From the NCBI GenBank assembly GCA_918298275.1, contig CAKJZO010000021.1:1-47901 (forward strand): DNA of 47,901 nucleotides, given 5' to 3'. Position 1 is the stretch's first letter. Every line of letters starts with the position of its first letter. Below the pieces are notes generated by a model that saw only the letters and a program-made list of their open reading frames with translations, did not search any database and was not told the origin of the DNA. Positions 23,556-34,117 of this stretch are shown here, piece after piece. This DNA comes from Spirochaetota bacterium (GTDB lineage Bacteria > Spirochaetota > Spirochaetia > Sphaerochaetales > Sphaerochaetaceae). A program made the position numbers and the translations under genes.

Positions 23556-24299
23556 ATGAAGAGAAAAACATACCCCAAAACCGTCCTGCTGCTTGTCGTT
23601 TCGGCAATCCTTCTTGCCGTTTCATGTTCGCTTGTACGTCCGGAAAGGACTCTGGAAGTGCAGATACCCAAACATCCCTGGGAAACAGTGCAGACAAAGA
23701 ATCTCTGGTACACCCTCAGATGGACGAGCGGCACTGAAATCCGCAGTGCCTACATCGGTCCTGACGAGAGGTTTGTCAGTCTCCACATACCAATCGGAGA
23801 GACCGTTCTGATTGCTGCCTATCCGCTTGGCGAGATGGCCCCTTTCGGAGCGATAATCACTCCCTTGGACGACGGAATCCAGGTATCCCTGAACCAGAAT
23901 GACGGGGTGGTTGTCAACGAACTTATTGACCTTGACCGCGTTGTTACACAAAGGCTGAACTATGGCCCGATTCGCGAGAGTATGATGAAAAAAACCGCTG
24001 ACTTACGCAGAATAGAGAAGGTTTCCCTTTTGCGTGATCTGCAGAACGGAGAGCTCTCGCAGACATCTTTCAAGGCCGTTTCGCTCTTCGGTGTGGACCC
24101 GTTCGTTCTGCCGAACGGACTATGGACAAGCGAGTACCTGTGCGACCCGAGCCTCTATATTTCGGACAACCTCAGCCCCCAGCTGCAGCTGCCTGAAGGA
24201 GTGTTCCGCTATCTCAATGCAGACATGAACCGAGTCCTGGTTCTCATAGTCGATTCCTCCGGAAACAGCTACAGCTATCTCAAGCAGAGCCTGATCTAA
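23556..24299 (+). CDS. Putative lipoprotein, unknown function
   Basis: N-terminal hydrophobic segment with lipobox-like LLAVSC; no recognised domain. Confidence 0.8.
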   Translation: MKRKTYPKTVLLLVVSAILLAVSCSLVRPERTLEVQIPKHPWETVQTKNLWYTLRWTSGTEIRSAYIGPDERFVSLHIPIGETVLIAAYPLGEMAPFGAIITPLDDGIQVSLNQNDGVVVNELIDLDRVVTQRLNYGPIRESMMKKTADLRRIEKVSLLRDLQNGELSQTSFKAVSLFGVDPFVLPNGLWTSEYLCDPSLYISDNLSPQLQLPEGVFRYLNADMNRVLVLIVDSSGNSYSYLKQSLI

Positions 24300-24323
24300 A
24301 TGTACACTAAAGGAGGTTAGCCC

Positions 24324-24417
24324 ATGACATTCGAGTGGGATGAGCGAAAGAATCATTCCAGCACGATGTGCCACCGAGAAGGAAGCAAATGAGTACAAAG
24401 AAAAGAATAACTCTTGA
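24324..24417 (+). pseudogene. brnT: BrnT toxin remnant, internally deleted and frame-broken
   Basis: AGGAGG SD then MTFEWDERKN (BrnT N-terminus), followed in another frame by ARCATEKEANEYKEKNNS* (BrnT C-terminal ARxAT-KE); the middle of the protein is missing. Confidence 0.8.
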
Positions 24418-24711
24418 AGAATTGCAATCGAAAGAAATGCCGGAGGAGGCGAAGATAAGGATCCGAAGTGCGGTTTCTGTTTATGACGAAGATAATCCGC
24501 CGATGACGAAAGAAGAGCTGGAAACCCTTCGTCCTGTAGCACCAGACATCCGGAATGGTTCAAACCCAGAAAGGCAGATGTCCACCTCAAGATCGATATC
24601 GATGTCCTGGAAGCCTTCAAAGCCCAGGGAAAGGGCTATCGGACTCGTATAAACGAGGTTCTGCGCAACTATATTTTCAATCAAAACCAACTCCAAAAAC
24701 AGGAAATGTGA
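24389..24711 (+). pseudogene. brnA: BrnA antitoxin, frameshifted
   Basis: Frame 1: MSTKKRITLEELQSKEMPEEAKIRIRSAVSVYDEDNPPMTKEELETLRPVAPDI. Frame 2: HPEWFKPRKADVHLKIDIDVLEAFKAQGKGYRTRINEVLRNYIFNQNQLQKQEM* (BrnA C-terminal DNA-binding domain). Confidence 0.85.
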
Positions 24712-24775
24712 CAAGTGTGTAAATGATTTTTTAAAACATTTCGTAAAAAATTAAAAAAGATTTTTAAAAAAATTG

Positions 24776-24804
24776 TTGACAAAATGGTTGCATTTATATA
24801 TATT
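24776..24804 (+). promoter_or_regulatory. Sigma70-type promoter of module copy 1
   Basis: TTGACA (24776-24781)-N17-TATATT (24799-24804), preceded by A/T tracts 24727-24771. Confidence 0.8.
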
Positions 24805-24859
24805 GAAAATACGGACGCGTATGTGTCCTCGATTCTTTATCTGCAAGGGGCTTTTGAAC

Positions 24860-25405
24860 ATGAAAAAAGCAATGATGACAATTCTGCTTTTCTCTGTGTT
24901 TTCGGTATGCCTTTTTGCAGATTCCTTCCGTTTCAGCATTGTCTGGGACAAGGTGGTTGAATCGGAAACAACCCTTTCTGTTGTGAATCTTGATAACGAC
25001 AGTGAAGTCGAGAATCACAGCAAGGATTTGGAGATTGTCAGTACTGTGCAGGATGTAGCCAGAATCAAGTATGCCTCAAACGAAGGTGGAATACATGTTC
25101 TCTCATATAAGGCAACACCGCTGATGAACAACAGCGACCAGTCCGGTCATTCCTTCAACCTTTTCTTCAGTTATACAGAAAACGATTCAACAGATGTTCA
25201 GGAAATCCAGGTAGGAACAAATAAGTCTCTTACCTATCCCAATGGATCTGTTAAGGCTGAAACATCAATAAATATGGGGCAGGGTGGTGTTCTGACCCCC
25301 AGATATGTTCTCATTCAGGTTGAGCTTCCCGATGTCTCCGTTGACACCATGCAGACTAATGTCAAATACACTTCGACAATCACAATAGAGAGGACGTCGC
25401 CATGA
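24860..25405 (+). CDS. Secreted protein, module family A copy 1
   Basis: Signal peptide MKKAMMTILLFSVFSVCLFA|D; C-terminus VKYTSTITIERTSP; AAGGGG SD; ATGA overlap with next gene. Confidence 0.9.
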   Translation: MKKAMMTILLFSVFSVCLFADSFRFSIVWDKVVESETTLSVVNLDNDSEVENHSKDLEIVSTVQDVARIKYASNEGGIHVLSYKATPLMNNSDQSGHSFNLFFSYTENDSTDVQEIQVGTNKSLTYPNGSVKAETSINMGQGGVLTPRYVLIQVELPDVSVDTMQTNVKYTSTITIERTSP

Positions 25406-26106
25406 AGAAATGCATTGTCCTCGCTACTATGCTGATAGTCTCAATGGTATTTGCCTTTGCCGATACCCACCTTGGAAGAACCGAAAACACTGTCACAGAC
25501 AGTTCCTTCGTTGTTCAGGGGTATTACAAAGGAGAGAAGGAAAATACTTCTGTTACTCTGGCATTCAAGGATATTGATAATCAGACAATCGTTCATTCTG
25601 GTCAGTCAACAACCGGAACTAAAGTCAACGTGTCTGACCGACACCTTGGATCGAATACAGGTACGATTTTCACTTGGTCGATGACTGGCACTACAACCTC
25701 AACAACCACGTTGAAATTTACCTTTTCTACTCTTCAGGCGGAAATGAACGATGTTTTCTATCGTCCTACATATACTTTGAAAATGACAATTAACGAAACT
25801 CGTAATAGAAATAGTGGCGGTAGTACATTGACAGACACCTTCTATTCCAATGTCACAAATAAAACACAGGTAGTTGGCGGCGGCACAACAACCGGAACAA
25901 AGGCTACTCAGAGTTCTGAATTTACCGGTGCTTCAACAATTACATATACAGGTAAGACCAGTAGTAGCGGTTATGGTTATGGTTACAGTTCCACAACATG
26001 GTACAGATCGGGAACCTGTACTTTGAATATTGCAGATTACGAACAGACAATCCCCGGCAGTTATCATTATGTCTGCTGGGTTATCGCGGAGTACTCGGTA
26101 CAATGA
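25402..26106 (+). CDS. Secreted protein, module family B copy 1
   Basis: Signal peptide MKKCIVLATMLIVSMVFAFA|D; similar to B copy 2 (FxWxx[ST]G...TLxF[TS]F, WxRSGT). Confidence 0.9.
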   Translation: MKKCIVLATMLIVSMVFAFADTHLGRTENTVTDSSFVVQGYYKGEKENTSVTLAFKDIDNQTIVHSGQSTTGTKVNVSDRHLGSNTGTIFTWSMTGTTTSTTTLKFTFSTLQAEMNDVFYRPTYTLKMTINETRNRNSGGSTLTDTFYSNVTNKTQVVGGGTTTGTKATQSSEFTGASTITYTGKTSSSGYGYGYSSTTWYRSGTCTLNIADYEQTIPGSYHYVCWVIAEYSVQ

Positions 26107-26723
26107 AGAAAATAATCGTTTCACTATTTCTAATTGTCTCTTTGTTCTCTGTCTTTGGGGCTACAATCGACCCGTTTAAGGTTCAGACCATATCTGGATT
26201 TATTGATGACATATCTTATCTTTATGTAAGTCCTTTTACCTTTGACTATATCGGTACCGTAGGCTATGCAGGTATTAATTTGGATTATGAAGATACAACA
26301 GCTAGCTATCGCAATCTTGTTAAGCCCTCAAGTACTCCATTGTCGATGCTTGGTGTCCAGATTGGATCTTTTTCTGTTTTGGTTACATATACACAGTCTA
26401 CAACAATCTCAGGTGCAAAACTGACTATTACCCACGAGAAGCTGATTCATACCACTGATTCAAGCGCTCAACTTGAATATGAGTTGGGAGTTCTTTATGC
26501 AATAAGCAATGGGACAACTACCGGAACAGAAACTTCTGCAATTTGTCTCAGTACGGAAGCTACGGGTAACAATCCTAAAAAGATTGAAATCACCCTTTCT
26601 CAACAGTCAAAGATTGCAGCTATTCAGAATGCATATCTATATTTCCGTCTCGCAAATGGCCAGAAAGCTTCGGTGACTGGGCAGTATGAATCAGTTGTTA
26701 CTTTTACGATGGAGGCAATATGA
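26103..26723 (+). CDS. Secreted protein, module family C copy 1
   Basis: Start at MKKIIVSLFLIVSLFSVFG inside ORF 25998; motifs shared with C copy 2 (IGSFSVLV, THEKLIHTTDSS, GQYESVVTFTM). Confidence 0.9.
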   Translation: MKKIIVSLFLIVSLFSVFGATIDPFKVQTISGFIDDISYLYVSPFTFDYIGTVGYAGINLDYEDTTASYRNLVKPSSTPLSMLGVQIGSFSVLVTYTQSTTISGAKLTITHEKLIHTTDSSAQLEYELGVLYAISNGTTTGTETSAICLSTEATGNNPKKIEITLSQQSKIAAIQNAYLYFRLANGQKASVTGQYESVVTFTMEAI

Positions 26724-28066
26724 AGAAACTAATTCTCATACTCTCCATTCTATTCTTGTTCTCCGTATCTGTTTTTGCTGTTGAATCTTTCTGGTGCCTT
26801 AATGCAACTGCTAACGTATCAAGCAGTGGAGATCACTATCGATTCAATTACAGTACAGTATTTGACTTGTCGACCTATTTCTCCGGAACACCCAAATTCA
26901 GCGATTATGCAGGCCAAAGCAATCCCAACGGAAAGCTGAATGAATCAAGAGCAATCGGAACTGTTGGTGTTGGCGGTTGTGATCATGCCATTGAATATAC
27001 AATAAGCACGAATGGCGGAAAGTTTGTTTCTCAGTCAGACCCCTCCAAGTATCGAGAATTCTATGTTGTTAATGTTCCTGACTACTCTGAGTCCAACAGT
27101 TCGGGCAGAAGCTATCTTTGTTATAATTACAACGGTACTGGTGCAACAGCACATAGTACGCTAGGTAGCAATTCAATGACATTCACTGCGCCTGTAACAA
27201 ATGGAAATACGAGTACAACGATTTACAATAGCAATGGCAGAACTACAAACGTAAAATGTGCCTCTGTCGGACTTGACCTGTTCCTTTGTATGGCCCAATT
27301 GTCAAATTCAGATTTGGAGCACTTGGCAGAAAATGATGACTATATAGCAACCATTACCGTTTCTTGGCATTGTACCAATGCGGGTTGCAATCAAAATCAT
27401 TCAGGTACGTTTGATATGGTTGTAAGAGGATACTATGGAAGCAACTCCGGACAGGCTAGAGATTCATTCCTTCTCATCGTCAATCCTGCTGCAGATGTCA
27501 ATACTCTCGATCTTAAGAAGATGATGAAGGAAGACCAGACAAAGACAATCGCCAGCATGACAATTGCAACCACTACAAAAGAAGGAACCAGTGGCAATGC
27601 ATATGCCTGGCGTGATCATATCTATGCATTCCTTTCTGCCAGTGCGGACTATAATACAGCCGATCATTCCGGTTTTGTCCTCACAAAAATGACAAACCGT
27701 TCGATTACGATTCCGTATACTCTGACTGTTTATAACACAACTTCCGGATCCTCAATGCAAGGACAGGTTTATGATGGGACAGACTACTTCATCGAGCATG
27801 ATCAGTCTTATTGCATTGATCTTAAGGACTATTCTAAACCAAGTACGAATTACTATGCTATGTCGTATGATAGATATGGCACATACTACTATGCAATAAA
27901 CTATAGTGGAAGGGTTGAAATAAACCTGACAAATTTTACAATACCAGGTACCACGGTTGATCTTCGGACAGTTATGAATGATCCTGTTACATATTACGAC
28001 GAGTACACCAGATATATTGGTAAATACGAATCCAACATTTATTACCATATAGTTTTTGTGGATTAA
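26720..28066 (+). CDS. Secreted two-domain protein, module family D copy 1
   Basis: Signal peptide MKKLILILSILFLFSVSVFA; internal DDYIATITVSW and terminal GKYESNIYYHIVF strand motifs; Cys-containing HCTNAGCNQNH. Confidence 0.9.
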   Translation: MKKLILILSILFLFSVSVFAVESFWCLNATANVSSSGDHYRFNYSTVFDLSTYFSGTPKFSDYAGQSNPNGKLNESRAIGTVGVGGCDHAIEYTISTNGGKFVSQSDPSKYREFYVVNVPDYSESNSSGRSYLCYNYNGTGATAHSTLGSNSMTFTAPVTNGNTSTTIYNSNGRTTNVKCASVGLDLFLCMAQLSNSDLEHLAENDDYIATITVSWHCTNAGCNQNHSGTFDMVVRGYYGSNSGQARDSFLLIVNPAADVNTLDLKKMMKEDQTKTIASMTIATTTKEGTSGNAYAWRDHIYAFLSASADYNTADHSGFVLTKMTNRSITIPYTLTVYNTTSGSSMQGQVYDGTDYFIEHDQSYCIDLKDYSKPSTNYYAMSYDRYGTYYYAINYSGRVEINLTNFTIPGTTVDLRTVMNDPVTYYDEYTRYIGKYESNIYYHIVFVD

Positions 28067-28150
28067 TGACTTGTATGTGTTGCAAAATTAGCAGTTTTGT
28101 AAAAAATTTTAAAAAAACCTGACAAAATTTGAAAAAAATTATAAAAAAAC

Positions 28151-28180
28151 TTGACTTCTCCCTATGCCTATACCTATTAT
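28151..28180 (+). promoter_or_regulatory. Promoter of module copy 2
   Basis: TTGACT (28151-28156)-N18-TATTAT (28175-28180); upstream A-tracts 28095-28149; spacer carries CCTATG-CCTATA-CCTATT. Confidence 0.7.
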
Positions 28181-28261
28181 ACGTATACCAAGGGTGCGTG
28201 TATTGGGTTAAAACTGCCAAGGATTGTTTTTCCTTGTTTGGTCGATAGAAAAGGGGAAGAA

Positions 28262-28810
28262 ATGAAGAAGATACTTGGTTTTGTTTTAATAAGCCTTTTA
28301 TTCCTTCCCGGATTATTATGTGCTGCGCCTTCTCTGCCTGCACAAAGAAACTTCAACCTTGTTCATACTCTTACATCAAATGCTACCTATCATTTTGTTT
28401 TCCAGAATATGGCAGATACTCCCGTTGAAATCACCAGTGCAGATGTCAGCAATGGTGGGAAATTTGCAAGGGTTGTTATTAATTTCAACGATGATGTACT
28501 TTATAGTTTCAATCTGAAATTCAGTCCCCTTGAGCATGTTTCTCTTGCAAATACATTCTGTGAATATACAATGGAAGTTCTCAGACCCAATTCAAATGAG
28601 ACACTCGTGCCAGTGGTTCCGAATCAGAGCGAGGGACATAGTGCCTGCAGTGCAACATTGAACGGAAGGGTGGATTACCAATTATCTGGAACTTGGCAGA
28701 ATGAATACCTTGCAGAGCTCAAGATCACACTGGATACAGATTCTGCACTTGCCGGAATCTATGCCGGTACAATTATTATCGAACAGATTACAGACGGAGG
28801 CGGCCAATGA
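28262..28810 (+). CDS. Secreted protein, module family A copy 2
   Basis: Signal peptide MKKILGFVLISLLFLPGLLCA; C-terminus AGIYAGTIIIEQ; AAGGGG-like SD; ATGA overlap. Confidence 0.9.
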   Translation: MKKILGFVLISLLFLPGLLCAAPSLPAQRNFNLVHTLTSNATYHFVFQNMADTPVEITSADVSNGGKFARVVINFNDDVLYSFNLKFSPLEHVSLANTFCEYTMEVLRPNSNETLVPVVPNQSEGHSACSATLNGRVDYQLSGTWQNEYLAELKITLDTDSALAGIYAGTIIIEQITDGGGQ

Positions 28811-29634
28811 AGAAATTGATATTGGTGACTCTCGTCTTGTGTCTTGCTGCTCAGTTTTGGCTCTTTGCTGATGGTGAATCATATACCCAGGTAGATGGGG
28901 CTTCTAGGATAATAACGGCATATAAGAACCAAAAAACAGGTGAATTGCCGGATCTGTCAATGGCAATCAGATTACTTGATTCCTCTGATACCGAATTTGT
29001 TGAAGACGGGAAGGATATTAATCTTCCTGTTGATGCAAGAGGTTCGTATTATAAAGCTTTCAGTTGGGTTTTCTCTGGGAATGCCTTCGGGGCAGTTACC
29101 CTGACTTTCTCATTTGCCAGAATGAGTCTGAATGGTGCTAATACCAATAACCAAACTGAATATATTCCATACAAAGTAAAAATGGTCTACAGTCCATCAA
29201 AAGTCGGTAATTCGACTATTCAGATGAACACAGCTTCAACAGCACAGGCATATATGACCAATAGCTTTACCGGAACTACATATAGGATGTATTATGCAGA
29301 TTCTATATCCAATGGAGCTGTTTCCTCAGTTGAGACAAGTGGAGGAGAGTCCCCTGCCAGTAATTATGGAAATGCTTTCAGTGTTGCCTTATCCTATAAT
29401 ATGAGTTCGAACACCAAAGTTCAGGATGCCGATGCTCAGGACAAAAAGCAGGAATATATAAATAAAGTAACTCAGAACAACCATGCCAATGTCTGTGATT
29501 ATTGGAACAGGTCCGGCACTGCCTATGTGCAATTGTTGATCAACAATGATCGAACATGGAGTACAAACTCAAGCATAAAAGCAAAAGTTGGAGAGTATCG
29601 TGCAAATGTAACAGTGGGGGTAACTGTGCAATGA
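28807..29634 (+). CDS. Secreted protein, module family B copy 2
   Basis: Signal peptide MKKLILVTLVLCLAAQFWLFA|D; FSWVFSGNAFGAVTLTFSF, YWNRSGTAYV; C-terminus VGEYRANVTVGVTVQ. Confidence 0.9.
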   Translation: MKKLILVTLVLCLAAQFWLFADGESYTQVDGASRIITAYKNQKTGELPDLSMAIRLLDSSDTEFVEDGKDINLPVDARGSYYKAFSWVFSGNAFGAVTLTFSFARMSLNGANTNNQTEYIPYKVKMVYSPSKVGNSTIQMNTASTAQAYMTNSFTGTTYRMYYADSISNGAVSSVETSGGESPASNYGNAFSVALSYNMSSNTKVQDADAQDKKQEYINKVTQNNHANVCDYWNRSGTAYVQLLINNDRTWSTNSSIKAKVGEYRANVTVGVTVQ

Positions 29635-30203
29635 AAAAACTATTTATTGTTCTTTCTAACATACTTTTCTCCCTCTTTGTTTTAGCGGCTGCGGAACCAA
29701 GCAAGTATGATTTTGCAATTTCCGGAGTTGTCCGTTCGAGTATTGTTTTTCAGGTTACTATTTTTGAAGACGCAATACCGTTTGATCTGGATGGTTCCCT
29801 TGTAACTTATAATCCTTCCTATGCTTCTATGGTAACAGGAATCAGAATCGGGCAATATACACTTGTAAGTAGAACGCCAAGTATAAAACTATGCGTCTCC
29901 CATACGCCTCTTGTGCATTCTGACTCGTCTTTGACAGAGAATAATCAGATCAACTACAGATTGTATCTGATTACAGGTGATGGGGCACAGAATTTTGTGT
30001 CTACAAGGGGAGAGCAACTTGACATACTTGGTCCTTCCATAAGCACAACGGTCAATGATACGGAAGTAATTTCTCTTATCGACGAATATATGTATGTAAC
30101 ACTTGATGAAGGGAGTGATGCTGCGACTGAAGCAGTTTGCTCGGAGCTTGAATCGGGGATTTATCAATCCACCATTACGTTTTCGGTATGGGTGCAAACA
30201 TGA
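29631..30203 (+). CDS. Secreted protein, module family C copy 2
   Basis: Start MKKLFIVLSNILFSLFVLAAA inside ORF 29556; IGQYTLVSRTPSIKLCVSHTPLVHSDSS; C-terminus SGIYQSTITFSVWVQT. Confidence 0.9.
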   Translation: MKKLFIVLSNILFSLFVLAAAEPSKYDFAISGVVRSSIVFQVTIFEDAIPFDLDGSLVTYNPSYASMVTGIRIGQYTLVSRTPSIKLCVSHTPLVHSDSSLTENNQINYRLYLITGDGAQNFVSTRGEQLDILGPSISTTVNDTEVISLIDEYMYVTLDEGSDAATEAVCSELESGIYQSTITFSVWVQT

Positions 30204-31519
30204 TTAAAAAAAACAAATTAGTGATTGCATTCCTATTGGTCTTGGCAACTTCTCTGTTTAGCCTATTTGCAGGAGCAGACTGGGAGAATGTCTTGCTTTG
30301 CCAACCGACGAATGTAATCAACAATCAGAGCGTGATGATTGAAATGTCCCAGGCGAAAACCATTAATCATGATTCAGCATTCGGCTCCGTTGTTTATACC
30401 ACTCCGTATAAACCCAAGTATGAGGATCAAGGAGATATTGTTCTAATGGCCTTGATTGATACTCTGGATTCGAGTAAGAATGGTTCTTCCGTTACATTCA
30501 CCATCGAAAGCGAGGATCCTGCCGGCTTCTTTTTTGTAAAGGATGGAAACGAAACAAACAAAGTAGGATATGAATTAGAGGCTTGCTTTTTGGAATTTGA
30601 GAAAAAGGTTAATATTGGTTTTCTTAGTGTTTCGGTGGATTATCCAAAGACAAATAACGGGAAAAAAATGCGTTTGGGCATTGAAGAAAGCTGTGGAGAA
30701 AGTAAGAAAACAAAGTTTGAATATAACGGAACTAACAAATATACACTTTCAATTCCAACGACTTCTTATTCTTCGATACTTGGCTGGGGTTGGCTGGGTG
30801 CCTATCCACAACATCTGCGATTCTACTATATTTGTGTCCATGTGTTAGGCGGACAGAACCTTGAGGAGGGCTCATATTCTTCTTCTTTCTATGTTCGTAG
30901 TAGCGATAGTAGTATTCCTAGTACTAAGTACACAATCAAGGGCTATGTGGGAGAAAAGCCGGTAGCGGATTCAACCGAATTCAGTTTCTTCATAGGTCCG
31001 GGAGCAGATTCTTATTTCACTGATCTGGTAGTTGCGAATAATACAACTTCACCATCAAAAGATATTGCAAGTCTTCAGTTTTATTTTACCAGAAAAGGAA
31101 CATATTCCAGCGAACCGAGTGCGAACACATATAAGAAGAAATTTACAATCTATATTTCTCCTACTAATGACTATGCAGCAAACGCCAGATTCGTTTTCAA
31201 AAAAACCGGAACGGAAAACCAGGCAGATAGCTTTGCCAACCGAATCTATTATGAAATAGATACAACAAATACTACCGGGCTTACGAAGTACAGTAATAAT
31301 ACAAACAATTATTCGTACTATTTCTATCCGGACTATTCTTCTCAATTACTCAGTAGTTCTGGAAGCAATAAAAACTATCAGGAATTCTGGAAGCTGGAAG
31401 GAAAGCATATTTATATCAAGGTGTCAGAAGATTCAAAAGAAACTAACGACAACATGCACTCGTCAGGTACTTATTCCTCGACCGTCTGGTTCATAATTGT
31501 TCCCAACGATAGCCTTTGA
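30200..31519 (+). CDS. Secreted two-domain protein, module family D copy 2
   Basis: Start MIKKNKLVIAFLLVLATSLFSLFA (ATGA overlap with C copy 2); internal EEGSYSSSFYV and terminal SGTYSSTVWFIIV strand motifs; GYVGEKPVADSTEFSFFIGPGAD aligns to D copy 1. Confidence 0.9.
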   Translation: MIKKNKLVIAFLLVLATSLFSLFAGADWENVLLCQPTNVINNQSVMIEMSQAKTINHDSAFGSVVYTTPYKPKYEDQGDIVLMALIDTLDSSKNGSSVTFTIESEDPAGFFFVKDGNETNKVGYELEACFLEFEKKVNIGFLSVSVDYPKTNNGKKMRLGIEESCGESKKTKFEYNGTNKYTLSIPTTSYSSILGWGWLGAYPQHLRFYYICVHVLGGQNLEEGSYSSSFYVRSSDSSIPSTKYTIKGYVGEKPVADSTEFSFFIGPGADSYFTDLVVANNTTSPSKDIASLQFYFTRKGTYSSEPSANTYKKKFTIYISPTNDYAANARFVFKKTGTENQADSFANRIYYEIDTTNTTGLTKYSNNTNNYSYYFYPDYSSQLLSSSGSNKNYQEFWKLEGKHIYIKVSEDSKETNDNMHSSGTYSSTVWFIIVPNDSL

Positions 31520-31543
31520 TAACCAAGATTCAGGCTGATAAGA

Positions 31544-31573
31544 AAAAAGGCCTCCGTCGGAGGCCTTTGTTGT
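31544..31573. terminator. Bidirectional terminator shared by module copy 2 and leuS
   Basis: AAAAAAGGCCTCCGTCGGAGGCCTTTGTTGT; near-perfect palindrome with A-tract on left and T-rich right. Confidence 0.85.
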
Positions 31574-31588: not shown

Positions 31589-34117
31589 TTACTTGACCAC
31601 GAAGCTCACCAGCTTGCCGGGAACGACGATTTCCTTGACGATGGTTGCACCGTCGAGGTACTTCTTTACATTCTCGTTCTCCTTGGCTGCTGCGATGATC
31701 TGGTCCTTTGTGGCATCCTTTGAGAGCATGATTTTGGCTCTGACCTTGCCGTTGATCTGGCAGACGATCTGGATCTCCTCGTCGATTGTCAGGGCTTCGT
31801 TGTACTGGGGCCAGCTGACGTTGGCAACCGAGGGCTGGTGTCCTGCACGTGCCCAGAGCTCTTCTGCAAGATGCGGTGCGTACGGGGCAATCATCAGAAT
31901 CAGCGGCTCCCAGGCTTCTCTGGGAAGGGTGGGGAGCTTGGAGAGGTCGTTGATGTAGACCATCATCTGGCTGATGGCTGTGTTGAAGTTCAGCGTTGCA
32001 GTGTCATCCGTGACCTTCTTGATGGTCTTGTGCAGGCTCTTGAGGATCTCTGCCGGGGCTTTGTCCTCAGTGATTGCCTTCTCTTCTCCCAGACGCCAGA
32101 TGCGGTCAATGAAGCGCCAGACGCCGGCGATGCCGGTCGTGGACCAGGGCTTGGAAACCTGAAGCGGACCCATGAACATCTCGTACATGCGCATTGTATC
32201 TGCACCGTACTGGGCGATTACCTCGTCCGGGTTGATGACGTTCTTGAGGCTCTTTGACATCTTGGCGATTACGCGCTCGAGCTTCTCTCCGGTCTCCTTG
32301 TCCGTAAAGGTTCCGTCCTCGTTTTCGATGACCTGATCTGCCGGTACCAGTGATTTATTCGGTCTTTGATAAGCAAATGAGGTTATCATTCCCTGGTTGA
32401 CCAGTCTTGCAAACGGCTCGGGTGTGGAAACCAGTCCGAGGTCGAAGAGGACCTTGTGCCAGAACCTTGCATAGAGCAGGTGCAGCACCGCGTGCTCGGT
32501 TCCTCCGATGTAGAGGTTGACAGGCATCCAGTACTTTTCCTTCTCTGCATCGACGAAGGCCTTGGGGTTCTTCGGGTCGATGTAGCGCAGGTAGTACCAG
32601 CAGGATCCTCCCCACTGGGGCATGGTGTTGGTCTCTCTCTTTGCAGGGCCGCCGCACTTGGGGCACTTGCAGTTTACCCAGCTGTCGATGTTTGCCAGCG
32701 GGCTCTCTCCTGTACCGGAGGGCTGGTAGCTCTGGACTTCGGGCAGTGTGAGCGGAAGCTCGTCTTCGGGAACCAGGACGGTGCCGCAGTGAGGGCAGTG
32801 GATGAGAGGGATCGGCTCTCCCCAGTATCTCTGGCGGCTGAAGATCCAGTCACGGAGCTTGAAGTTGATCATCTTGTGACCGATCTTGCGTTCCTCGAGG
32901 AATTTTATCATGGCCTCGATGGCATCGGCCTTGTTGAGTCCGTCCAGGAAACCGCTGTTGACGTGGATTCCGTCTTCGGTCCAGGCCTGGGTCTGCACAT
33001 CGACTTCGGACTTGAGGACCTCTATGATGGGCAGGTTGAACTTCTTTGCAAACTCCCAGTCACGGGTATCGTGGGCCGGAACTGCCATGATGGCACCGGT
33101 GCCGTAGGAGATGAGTACGTAGTCAGCGATCCAGATCGGGATTTCCTTGCCGTTGACGGGGTTGATGGCATAGCTTCCGGAGAAGACGCCGGTTTTCTCC
33201 TTTGCAAGGTCCGTGCGGTCGAGGTCGCTCTTCTTGGCTGCCTGCTCGATGTAGGCCTTTACGGCTTTCTCGTTATCCTTGGTGGTGAGCTTGCCCACAA
33301 GCGGATGCTCGGGGGAGATTACCATGTAGGTTGCGCCGAAGAGGGTATCGCATCTGGTGGTGAAGACCTCCAGCTTGCCGTCGGGATCGTTCTCGAGGCC
33401 CTTGACCTGGAAGAGTACGGATGCGCCTTCGGACTTTCCGATCCAGTTGCGCTGCATGAGCTTGACGCTCTCGGGCCAGTCGACCAGATCCAGGTCGTCC
33501 AGAAGTCTCTGGGCGTAGGCTGTGATCTTGAGGACCCACTGACGGATGTTCTTCTTCTCTACCTGGCTGCCGCAGCGCTCGCATTTGCCTTCCTTGACCT
33601 CTTCGTTGGCAAGGCCGGTCTTGCAGTGGGGGCACCAGTTGATGGGAGCCTGACTCTCGTAGGCCAGTCCCTTCTCGTAGAGCTTCTCGAAGATCCACTG
33701 TGTCCAGTGGTAGTAATCCGGGTCGCAGGTCGAGATCTCGCGGTCCCAGTCGTAGCAGAAACCCAGGCTCTTGATCTGACGGCGGAAGGTGTTGATGTTC
33801 TTCTCCGTGGTGATGGCCGGGTGTGTGCCTGTCTGGATGGCGTAGTTTTCCGCCGGCAGTCCGAAGGAGTCGAATCCCATCGGATGCAGGACGTTGTAAC
33901 CGTTCATCCTGAGATAGCGGCAGTAGATGTCCGTGGCCGTGTAGCCCTCGGGGTGTCCGACATGAAGGCCTGCTCCCGAAGGATAGGGGAACATGTCGAG
34001 GACGTAGGCCCTCTTCTCCTTGGGGAAGGATGGGTCTTCGGCGACGGCAAAGGTCTTGTTCTCTGCCCAGTACTTCTGCCATTTAGGCTCTGTTTCTGCA
34101 AATGGATAACTGCTCAT
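31589..34117 (-). CDS. leuS: Leucyl-tRNA synthetase
   Basis: [22 protein letters not shown] (HIGH region), [29 protein letters not shown] (KMSKS). Confidence 0.99.

Follow-up and report, generated by a model that had tools for sequence, protein, structure and literature searches.

The window, a 47,901-nucleotide stretch of contig CAKJZO010000021.1 from a Spirochaetota bacterium of the family Sphaerochaetaceae (assembly GCA_918298275.1, 86% complete; genome G000), contains two consecutive four-gene units, A-B-C-D (unit 1) and A'-B'-C'-D' (unit 2). The units are probably exchangeable tip cassettes of a chaperone-usher pilus, the genes of which are dispersed, and would be served by a chaperone and an usher encoded on another contig of the same genome, C5. 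Direct support comes from the gene order, the paralogy of cognate genes, the similarity of the C and D folds to pilins, the presence of chaperone, usher, and pilin-like genes, and the linkage of subunit and machinery genes in genus g16. From these observations we infer donor-strand exchange, the order of assembly, the exchange of tips, the ligand, and an assembly in trans by the C5 machine. The earlier note on this DNA had proposed a multi-subunit extracytoplasmic filament or adhesin resembling chaperone-usher systems, and had suggested that the duplicated set may diversify ligand specificity. The filament proposal is supported by the C and D folds and by the chaperone and usher genes found near the g16 homologs and elsewhere in the source genome. 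Beyond it, the machinery is located outside the window, and the two units, which separated long ago, belong to a set of at least five cassettes scattered over the source genome.

The eight genes lie on the plus strand, and each encodes an N-terminal signal peptide (judged by eye), as the earlier note had stated; the protein sizes also agree. We compared all pairs among the eight proteins with hhalign, using profiles built from relatives with the signal peptides removed. The cognate pairs A-A', B-B', C-C', and D-D' scored 77% (2.4e-6), 97.4% (4e-11), 98.5% (3e-14), and 96.7% (5e-10), respectively, whereas all non-cognate pairs scored 19% or less. Therefore, the paralogy of the two units in gene order, which had been noticed by eye, is well beyond chance. 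A single-sequence search with C' retrieves a C homolog (E 2e-5), and most cognate pairs are so strongly diverged that they are detectable by profiles only. A also shows weak similarity to B and to C, which suggests that these proteins have a fold in common.

Relatives point to a considerable age of the pair. At the same site, downstream of the same DUF4416 and lipoprotein genes, the sibling genome G003 has both units and the sibling genome G005 has unit 2 alone. In G035, from a second genus, the two unit types are adjacent and oppositely oriented, upstream of a leuS homolog (judged from the protein ends). Because the branches of a tree of 20 D proteins are long and many of its forks are open, we used only its two strong groupings. 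Four unit-2 D proteins, those of the window, two sibling species, and G035, form one branch (100/100). The unit 1 D protein pairs with that of G001 (100/100), whose cassette is at another locus; the cassettes of G001, G007, and G005 adjoin a butyrate-kinase-like gene. The tree groupings together with the differing neighbors therefore place related cassettes at different chromosomal positions. Judged from these sequences, the unit 1 and unit 2 types predate the split of the two genera, and the pair is ancient.

AlphaFold models of two proteins of unit 1, C (pLDDT 82, alignment of 12 sequences) and D (pLDDT 78.5, alignment of 10 sequences), appear to have the immunoglobulin-like fold of chaperone-usher pilins. 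In a Foldseek search of the PDB, the top six matches of C were all chaperone-usher pilins, led by CfaB (1.5e-3 and 2.2e-3) and followed by FimG (4.4e-3 to 8.9e-3). The first three matches of D were a CfaB-CfaB fusion (6e-7), a CfaB trimer (1e-6), and the CFA/I chaperone-tip adhesin complex (3e-5). The next ten matches included SafDAA, FaeG, PsaA, and CooA, and entries for EcpA and Csu complexes ranked lower. The matches to CfaB-CfaB fusions fit two successive pilin-like domains in D, and the earlier comparison with sets that end in a two-domain tip adhesin is supported by these nearest folds of D. The fold evidence carries weight because the results for C and D agree with each other and with the gene context. 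The mark of type IV pilins, a type III signal peptide whose hydrophobic helix stays in the mature protein, was not seen: by eye, all eight proteins have ordinary signal peptides, and the models of C and D are of β-structure after the signal helix.

The last strand of chaperone-usher pilins typically carries a G-x-Tyr/Phe motif near the C-terminus, with the glycine about 14 residues from the end. A C-terminal G-x-[YF] positioned 7-15 residues from the end is present in 40 of 47 subunits and in 12 of 200 background open reading frames. The A protein of the window lacks the glycine of the motif.

The chaperone and usher were recognized through genus g16 (genomes G088, G085, and G103), in which a single operon encodes a protein of ~243 residues, a protein of ~1180-1280 residues, a B-like or unassigned protein, C, D, and small secreted proteins. 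The first of these is a PapD-like chaperone, matching PF00345 with E-values up to 1.2e-6, above the gathering score. Profiles derived from the g16 proteins identified a chaperone gene (C5:12949-13632) adjoining an usher gene (C5:13861-16767) in the source genome, and each profile matches 105 of 139 Sphaerochaetaceae genomes. The source-genome chaperone matches PF00345 at 7.6e-10 (39 bits, cut-off 23). Among PDB entries, EcpB (0.0014) is the sole convincing relative of the chaperone profile, which did not retrieve FimC. Arg89 of EcpB aligns with the near-invariant arginine of a VRVQY motif in the spirochaetal chaperones. This residue anchors the subunit C-terminus in the archaic and alternative, non-classical chaperones (PMC4654587). 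The spirochaetal chaperones share this arginine with that branch. In the g16 operons (L080 53-6402, L081 2218-6313, L083 7227-10803), C-D are followed by some five to eleven further genes for small secreted proteins, the majority of which have no match to the A-D profiles.

The large usher-like proteins match PF00577 in three of 14 family members (best 1.1e-5), the source-genome usher not being among them. The family aligns over about 700 columns (99%) with ushers of canonical length, ~800-830 residues, from other Spirochaetia. In three compact operons of other Spirochaetia families (L102, L103, and L104), the usher has 801-828 residues; two of them, L102 and L104, encode a tip with an SCPU domain and a related chaperone recognized by profile, and L103 gave no chaperone match. 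The chaperone and usher are named as members of the chaperone-usher class, and the membership of the window proteins is argued from fold, motif, and the linkage in a related genus.

Ordinary ushers start shortly after a cleaved signal peptide. Thirteen of the 14 spirochaetal ushers begin with at least one long hydrophobic segment, and those of g16 (L080, L081, L083) with three to five; the start of the exception, L088, may be misplaced. A linker of about 83-160 residues, or about 290-380 in g16, precedes the usher N-terminal domain. Proline and glutamate are abundant in this linker in the genus of the source genome, and less so elsewhere. Most ushers outside g16 have a conserved Thr-Cys behind the first membrane segment. 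One reading of these sequences is that the N-terminus forms an inner-membrane tether; alternatively, it could act as an extended signal peptide, or as a lipoprotein signal terminated by the conserved Thr-Cys. We tentatively suggest, as an idea that may well prove wrong, a system peculiar to Sphaerochaetaceae, in which N-terminal helices anchor a single usher in the inner membrane and an extended TonB-like linker, in many cases rich in Pro and Glu, connects them to its outer-membrane barrel. This usher would serve several independently promoted four-gene tip cassettes and a major-pilin array, and one machine would make pili with exchangeable tips.

A single cluster of subunit, chaperone, and usher genes is the usual layout of such systems and is not part of their mechanism. 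This layout was found in the three g16 genomes and not in the source genome. The 12 usher loci examined outside g16, including that of the source genome, have a paired chaperone and usher and no recognizable subunit genes. A cultured Sphaerochaeta likewise has a two-gene chaperone-usher locus, and the D profile detected no tip cassettes in it. The cassettes are scattered as well: the source genome has five four-gene cassettes and one detected usher in its 86% complete assembly. Conservation of the four-gene order among relatives, which the earlier note had proposed to look for, was found in several genera. Twelve type-1 units with the order A-B-C-D occur in three genera. Besides unit 1 of the window, they comprise seven from genus g1, one of which is a further unit of the source genome (C49), and units in genera g9 and g19 (G018, G157, G077 with a partial A, and G035). 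A third cassette type (A-like/X3/C3/D3) is present on contigs C24 and C105 of the source genome, with the first gene assigned to A mainly by position. The D profile detects relatives in 40 of 139 Sphaerochaetaceae genomes and seven of 22 genera. The named relatives are metagenome-assembled genomes, several from the rumen and one from horse feces.

A third group of proteins, encoded beside htpG, is single-domain, Ala/Thr-rich, and secreted, and carries the same C-terminal motif. Eight such genes are consecutive in G005. The source genome carries one pair on contig C64 and a second pair at an end of contig C9, and the two pairs probably belong to one htpG array. From the array, the size, and the motif, we infer that these proteins are the best candidates for the pilus shaft (major pilin). 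They match no pilin family. A geopilin identity was considered and rejected: the PDB match is weak (0.022), covers the N-terminal part only, and is read as signal-peptide resemblance. The family profile gave mostly short matches restricted to the signal peptide in closed genomes of genus g3. One of these, G012, has one possible pilin-like gene (L109 8806-9366, 186 residues) and no other recognized shaft or tip subunit.

We propose that A, B, and C act as single-domain pilin-like adaptors and D as a two-domain tip adhesin. The four proteins would leave the cytoplasm by the Sec pathway, be bound by the PapD-like chaperone while in the periplasm, and then be passed through the usher supplied in trans from C5. 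D would probably pass first, followed by A-C and then by the htpG-side shaft proteins of C9 and C64, with donor-strand exchange joining the subunits. The cell probably exchanges tips, since five tip cassettes and only one usher were found. Promoter-like sites precede both window units and several other cassettes; these separate sites suggest independent expression of the cassettes, which would allow a single machine to display different tips. Such an exchange would alter what the cell binds in the rumen or hindgut, perhaps plant fiber or mucus.

Several observations weigh against a chaperone-usher assignment of the window proteins. Pfam and NCBIfam scans of all eight gave no acceptable match and no pilin family, and a sequence search of the PDB with the C and D profiles found no pilin. 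The Foldseek TM-scores are low (about 0.2-0.5), and the E-values of C are marginal. A p value for the G-x-Y enrichment is only indicative, because the subunits are related and were counted as independent. Aligned singly, the usher matches FimD and EcpC weakly, at about 2e-3, although still better than unrelated controls (0.4-0.9). The co-occurrence of D and usher speaks for the assignment, the usher being present in 37 of 40 D-bearing genomes and in 68 of 99 others (p 0.0023, a count that ignores shared ancestry); many of the usher-bearing genomes probably have subunits missed by the D profile. On the other side, neither usher nor chaperone was detected in the D-bearing genomes G001, G003, and G157, one of which is 92% complete. 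The partnership of C5 with the cassettes is argued from homology with g16, because the machinery is unlinked in the source genome. None of the outcomes tested spoke against the earlier note's proposal; the fold was tested for C and D only, and the profile scans placed the proteins in no characterized family.

The absent sequence match, the unlinked chaperone and usher, and the three D-bearing genomes in which no usher was detected would also suit immunoglobulin-like proteins that form a surface coat, an S-layer-like layer, or a soluble adhesin complex and use another export route, with a pilin likeness reflecting a common β-sandwich only. We consider this unlikely, as the top folds are specifically chaperone-usher pilins and not general immunoglobulin domains, C-D of g16 is directly linked to a chaperone and an usher, and the C-terminal motif is present. 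Less probable still is that the C5 chaperone and usher build the major-pilin-like proteins only and that A-D are old derivatives recruited for something else, for instance as secreted decoys or as envelope proteins. The cassettes are indeed distant from the machinery, have promoter-like sites of their own, and far outnumber the ushers; however, several genera keep the four genes in the same order, the last one encoding two domains, and this, like the position of C and D beside the machinery genes in g16, suggests a retained pilus function. The earlier description of the units as tandemly duplicated stands for their adjacency and pairing and not for a recent event, the D types having split before the two genera separated. 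A recent duplication serving gene dosage, or antigen variation through recombination between the copies, would explain adjacent units of the same order, but we regard it as virtually ruled out: most cognates are diverged to the point of needing profiles, the D' clade spanning two genera contradicts it, and G005 has unit 2 alone at the syntenic place.

Among known systems, the proposed tip cassettes resemble most closely the alternative chaperone-usher pili of Escherichia coli, CFA/I-type and ECP. These provide the nearest folds of C and D (CfaB, the CFA/I tip complex, and CooA) and a two-domain tip protein, and ECP has in EcpB the chaperone's only convincing PDB relative, with the subunit-anchoring arginine in common (PMC4654587). 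The spirochaetal subunits, however, have almost no sequence identity to theirs and are spread over several loci, the four-gene tip cassettes occur in several copies, and the usher has about 1050-1280 residues instead of about 840-880, with an additional N-terminal membrane segment and linker. Archaic (sigma) Csu/spore-coat-U systems likewise place the tip adhesin gene behind several pilin-like genes, and other Spirochaetia families contain archaic-like compact operons that combine an SCPU tip with a chaperone and usher related to those described here. In contrast, no match to the SCPU domain (PF05229) was found by Pfam in any of the eight window proteins, and the genus of the source genome has the chaperone and usher outside the subunit operon. 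The likeness to classical type 1 and P pili is limited to FimG among the best folds of C and a weak usher-FimD alignment of about 120 columns, whereas the chaperone profile does not find FimC.

Archaic chaperone-usher systems have been listed in Proteobacteria, Cyanobacteria, and Deinococcus-Thermus, and the classical and alternate systems are restricted to β- and γ-proteobacteria (PMC4654587). A literature search, with most subscription journals outside its reach, found no account of chaperone-usher pili in Sphaerochaetaceae. If the proposal is correct, a rumen and hindgut spirochaete family has an unrecognized adhesion system in about three quarters of the genomes examined, with an unlinked layout, one machine for many tips, and an usher with an unexpected tether. 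Sphaerochaetaceae, to our knowledge, are without flagella. The proposal makes testable whether one usher assembles alternative tips, and how flagella-less spirochaetes hold on to fiber or mucus.

The eight genes form a series flanked by a conserved lipoprotein gene (23556-24299) on one side and by leuS (31589-34117, minus strand) on the other (Table 1). Adjacent genes inside each unit share a 4-base overlap, and the gap of ~195 bases between the units has a promoter-like site inside. Across the region, promoter-like sites are no more numerous than expected from shuffled sequence, and the two promoters are therefore assigned from position and strength alone. The G+C content is 0.39-0.45 over the eight genes (window positions 24000-31000) and mostly 0.50-0.58 in the flanks.

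Table 1 Predicted features of the two units and their surroundings (window coordinates).
Feature	Position	Strand	Basis
Putative unit 1 promoter, sigma-70-like (TTGACA-17-TATATT)	24776..24804	+	consensus match only; A/T tracts precede
A, single-domain pilin-like subunit, 181 aa including signal peptide	24860..25405	+	profile pairing; order common to type-1 units
B, single-domain pilin-like subunit, 234 aa	25402..26106	+	profile pairing; C-terminal G-x-Y motif
C, single-domain pilin-like subunit, 206 aa	26103..26723	+	profile pairing; AlphaFold model and PDB fold matches
D, two-domain tip-adhesin-like protein, 448 aa	26720..28066	+	AlphaFold model and PDB fold matches
Putative unit 2 promoter, sigma-70-like (TTGACT-18-TATTAT)	28151..28180	+	consensus match only
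A', cognate of A, 182 aa	28262..28810	+	profile pairing
B', cognate of B, 275 aa	28807..29634	+	profile pairing
C', cognate of C, 190 aa	29631..30203	+	profile pairing
D', cognate of D, 439 aa	30200..31519	+	profile pairing and D tree
Predicted intrinsic terminator, 10-pair stem, bidirectional, between D' and leuS	31546..31568	+	sequence scan

The segment just 5' of unit 1 (window positions 24322-24720) resembles, by eye, a remnant of a BrnT/BrnA-like toxin-antitoxin pair, with a BrnT-like start that is cut short (MTFEWDERKNHSS) and a BrnA-like frame interrupted by a frameshift. The lipoprotein gene upstream belongs to no Pfam family; it precedes the units in three species and is retained where unit 1 is absent. 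In the sibling G003, an extra gene for a 269-residue protein (L009 8956-9765) is inserted between the lipoprotein gene and the units, and because of this insertion the intergenic space may be an insertion spot.

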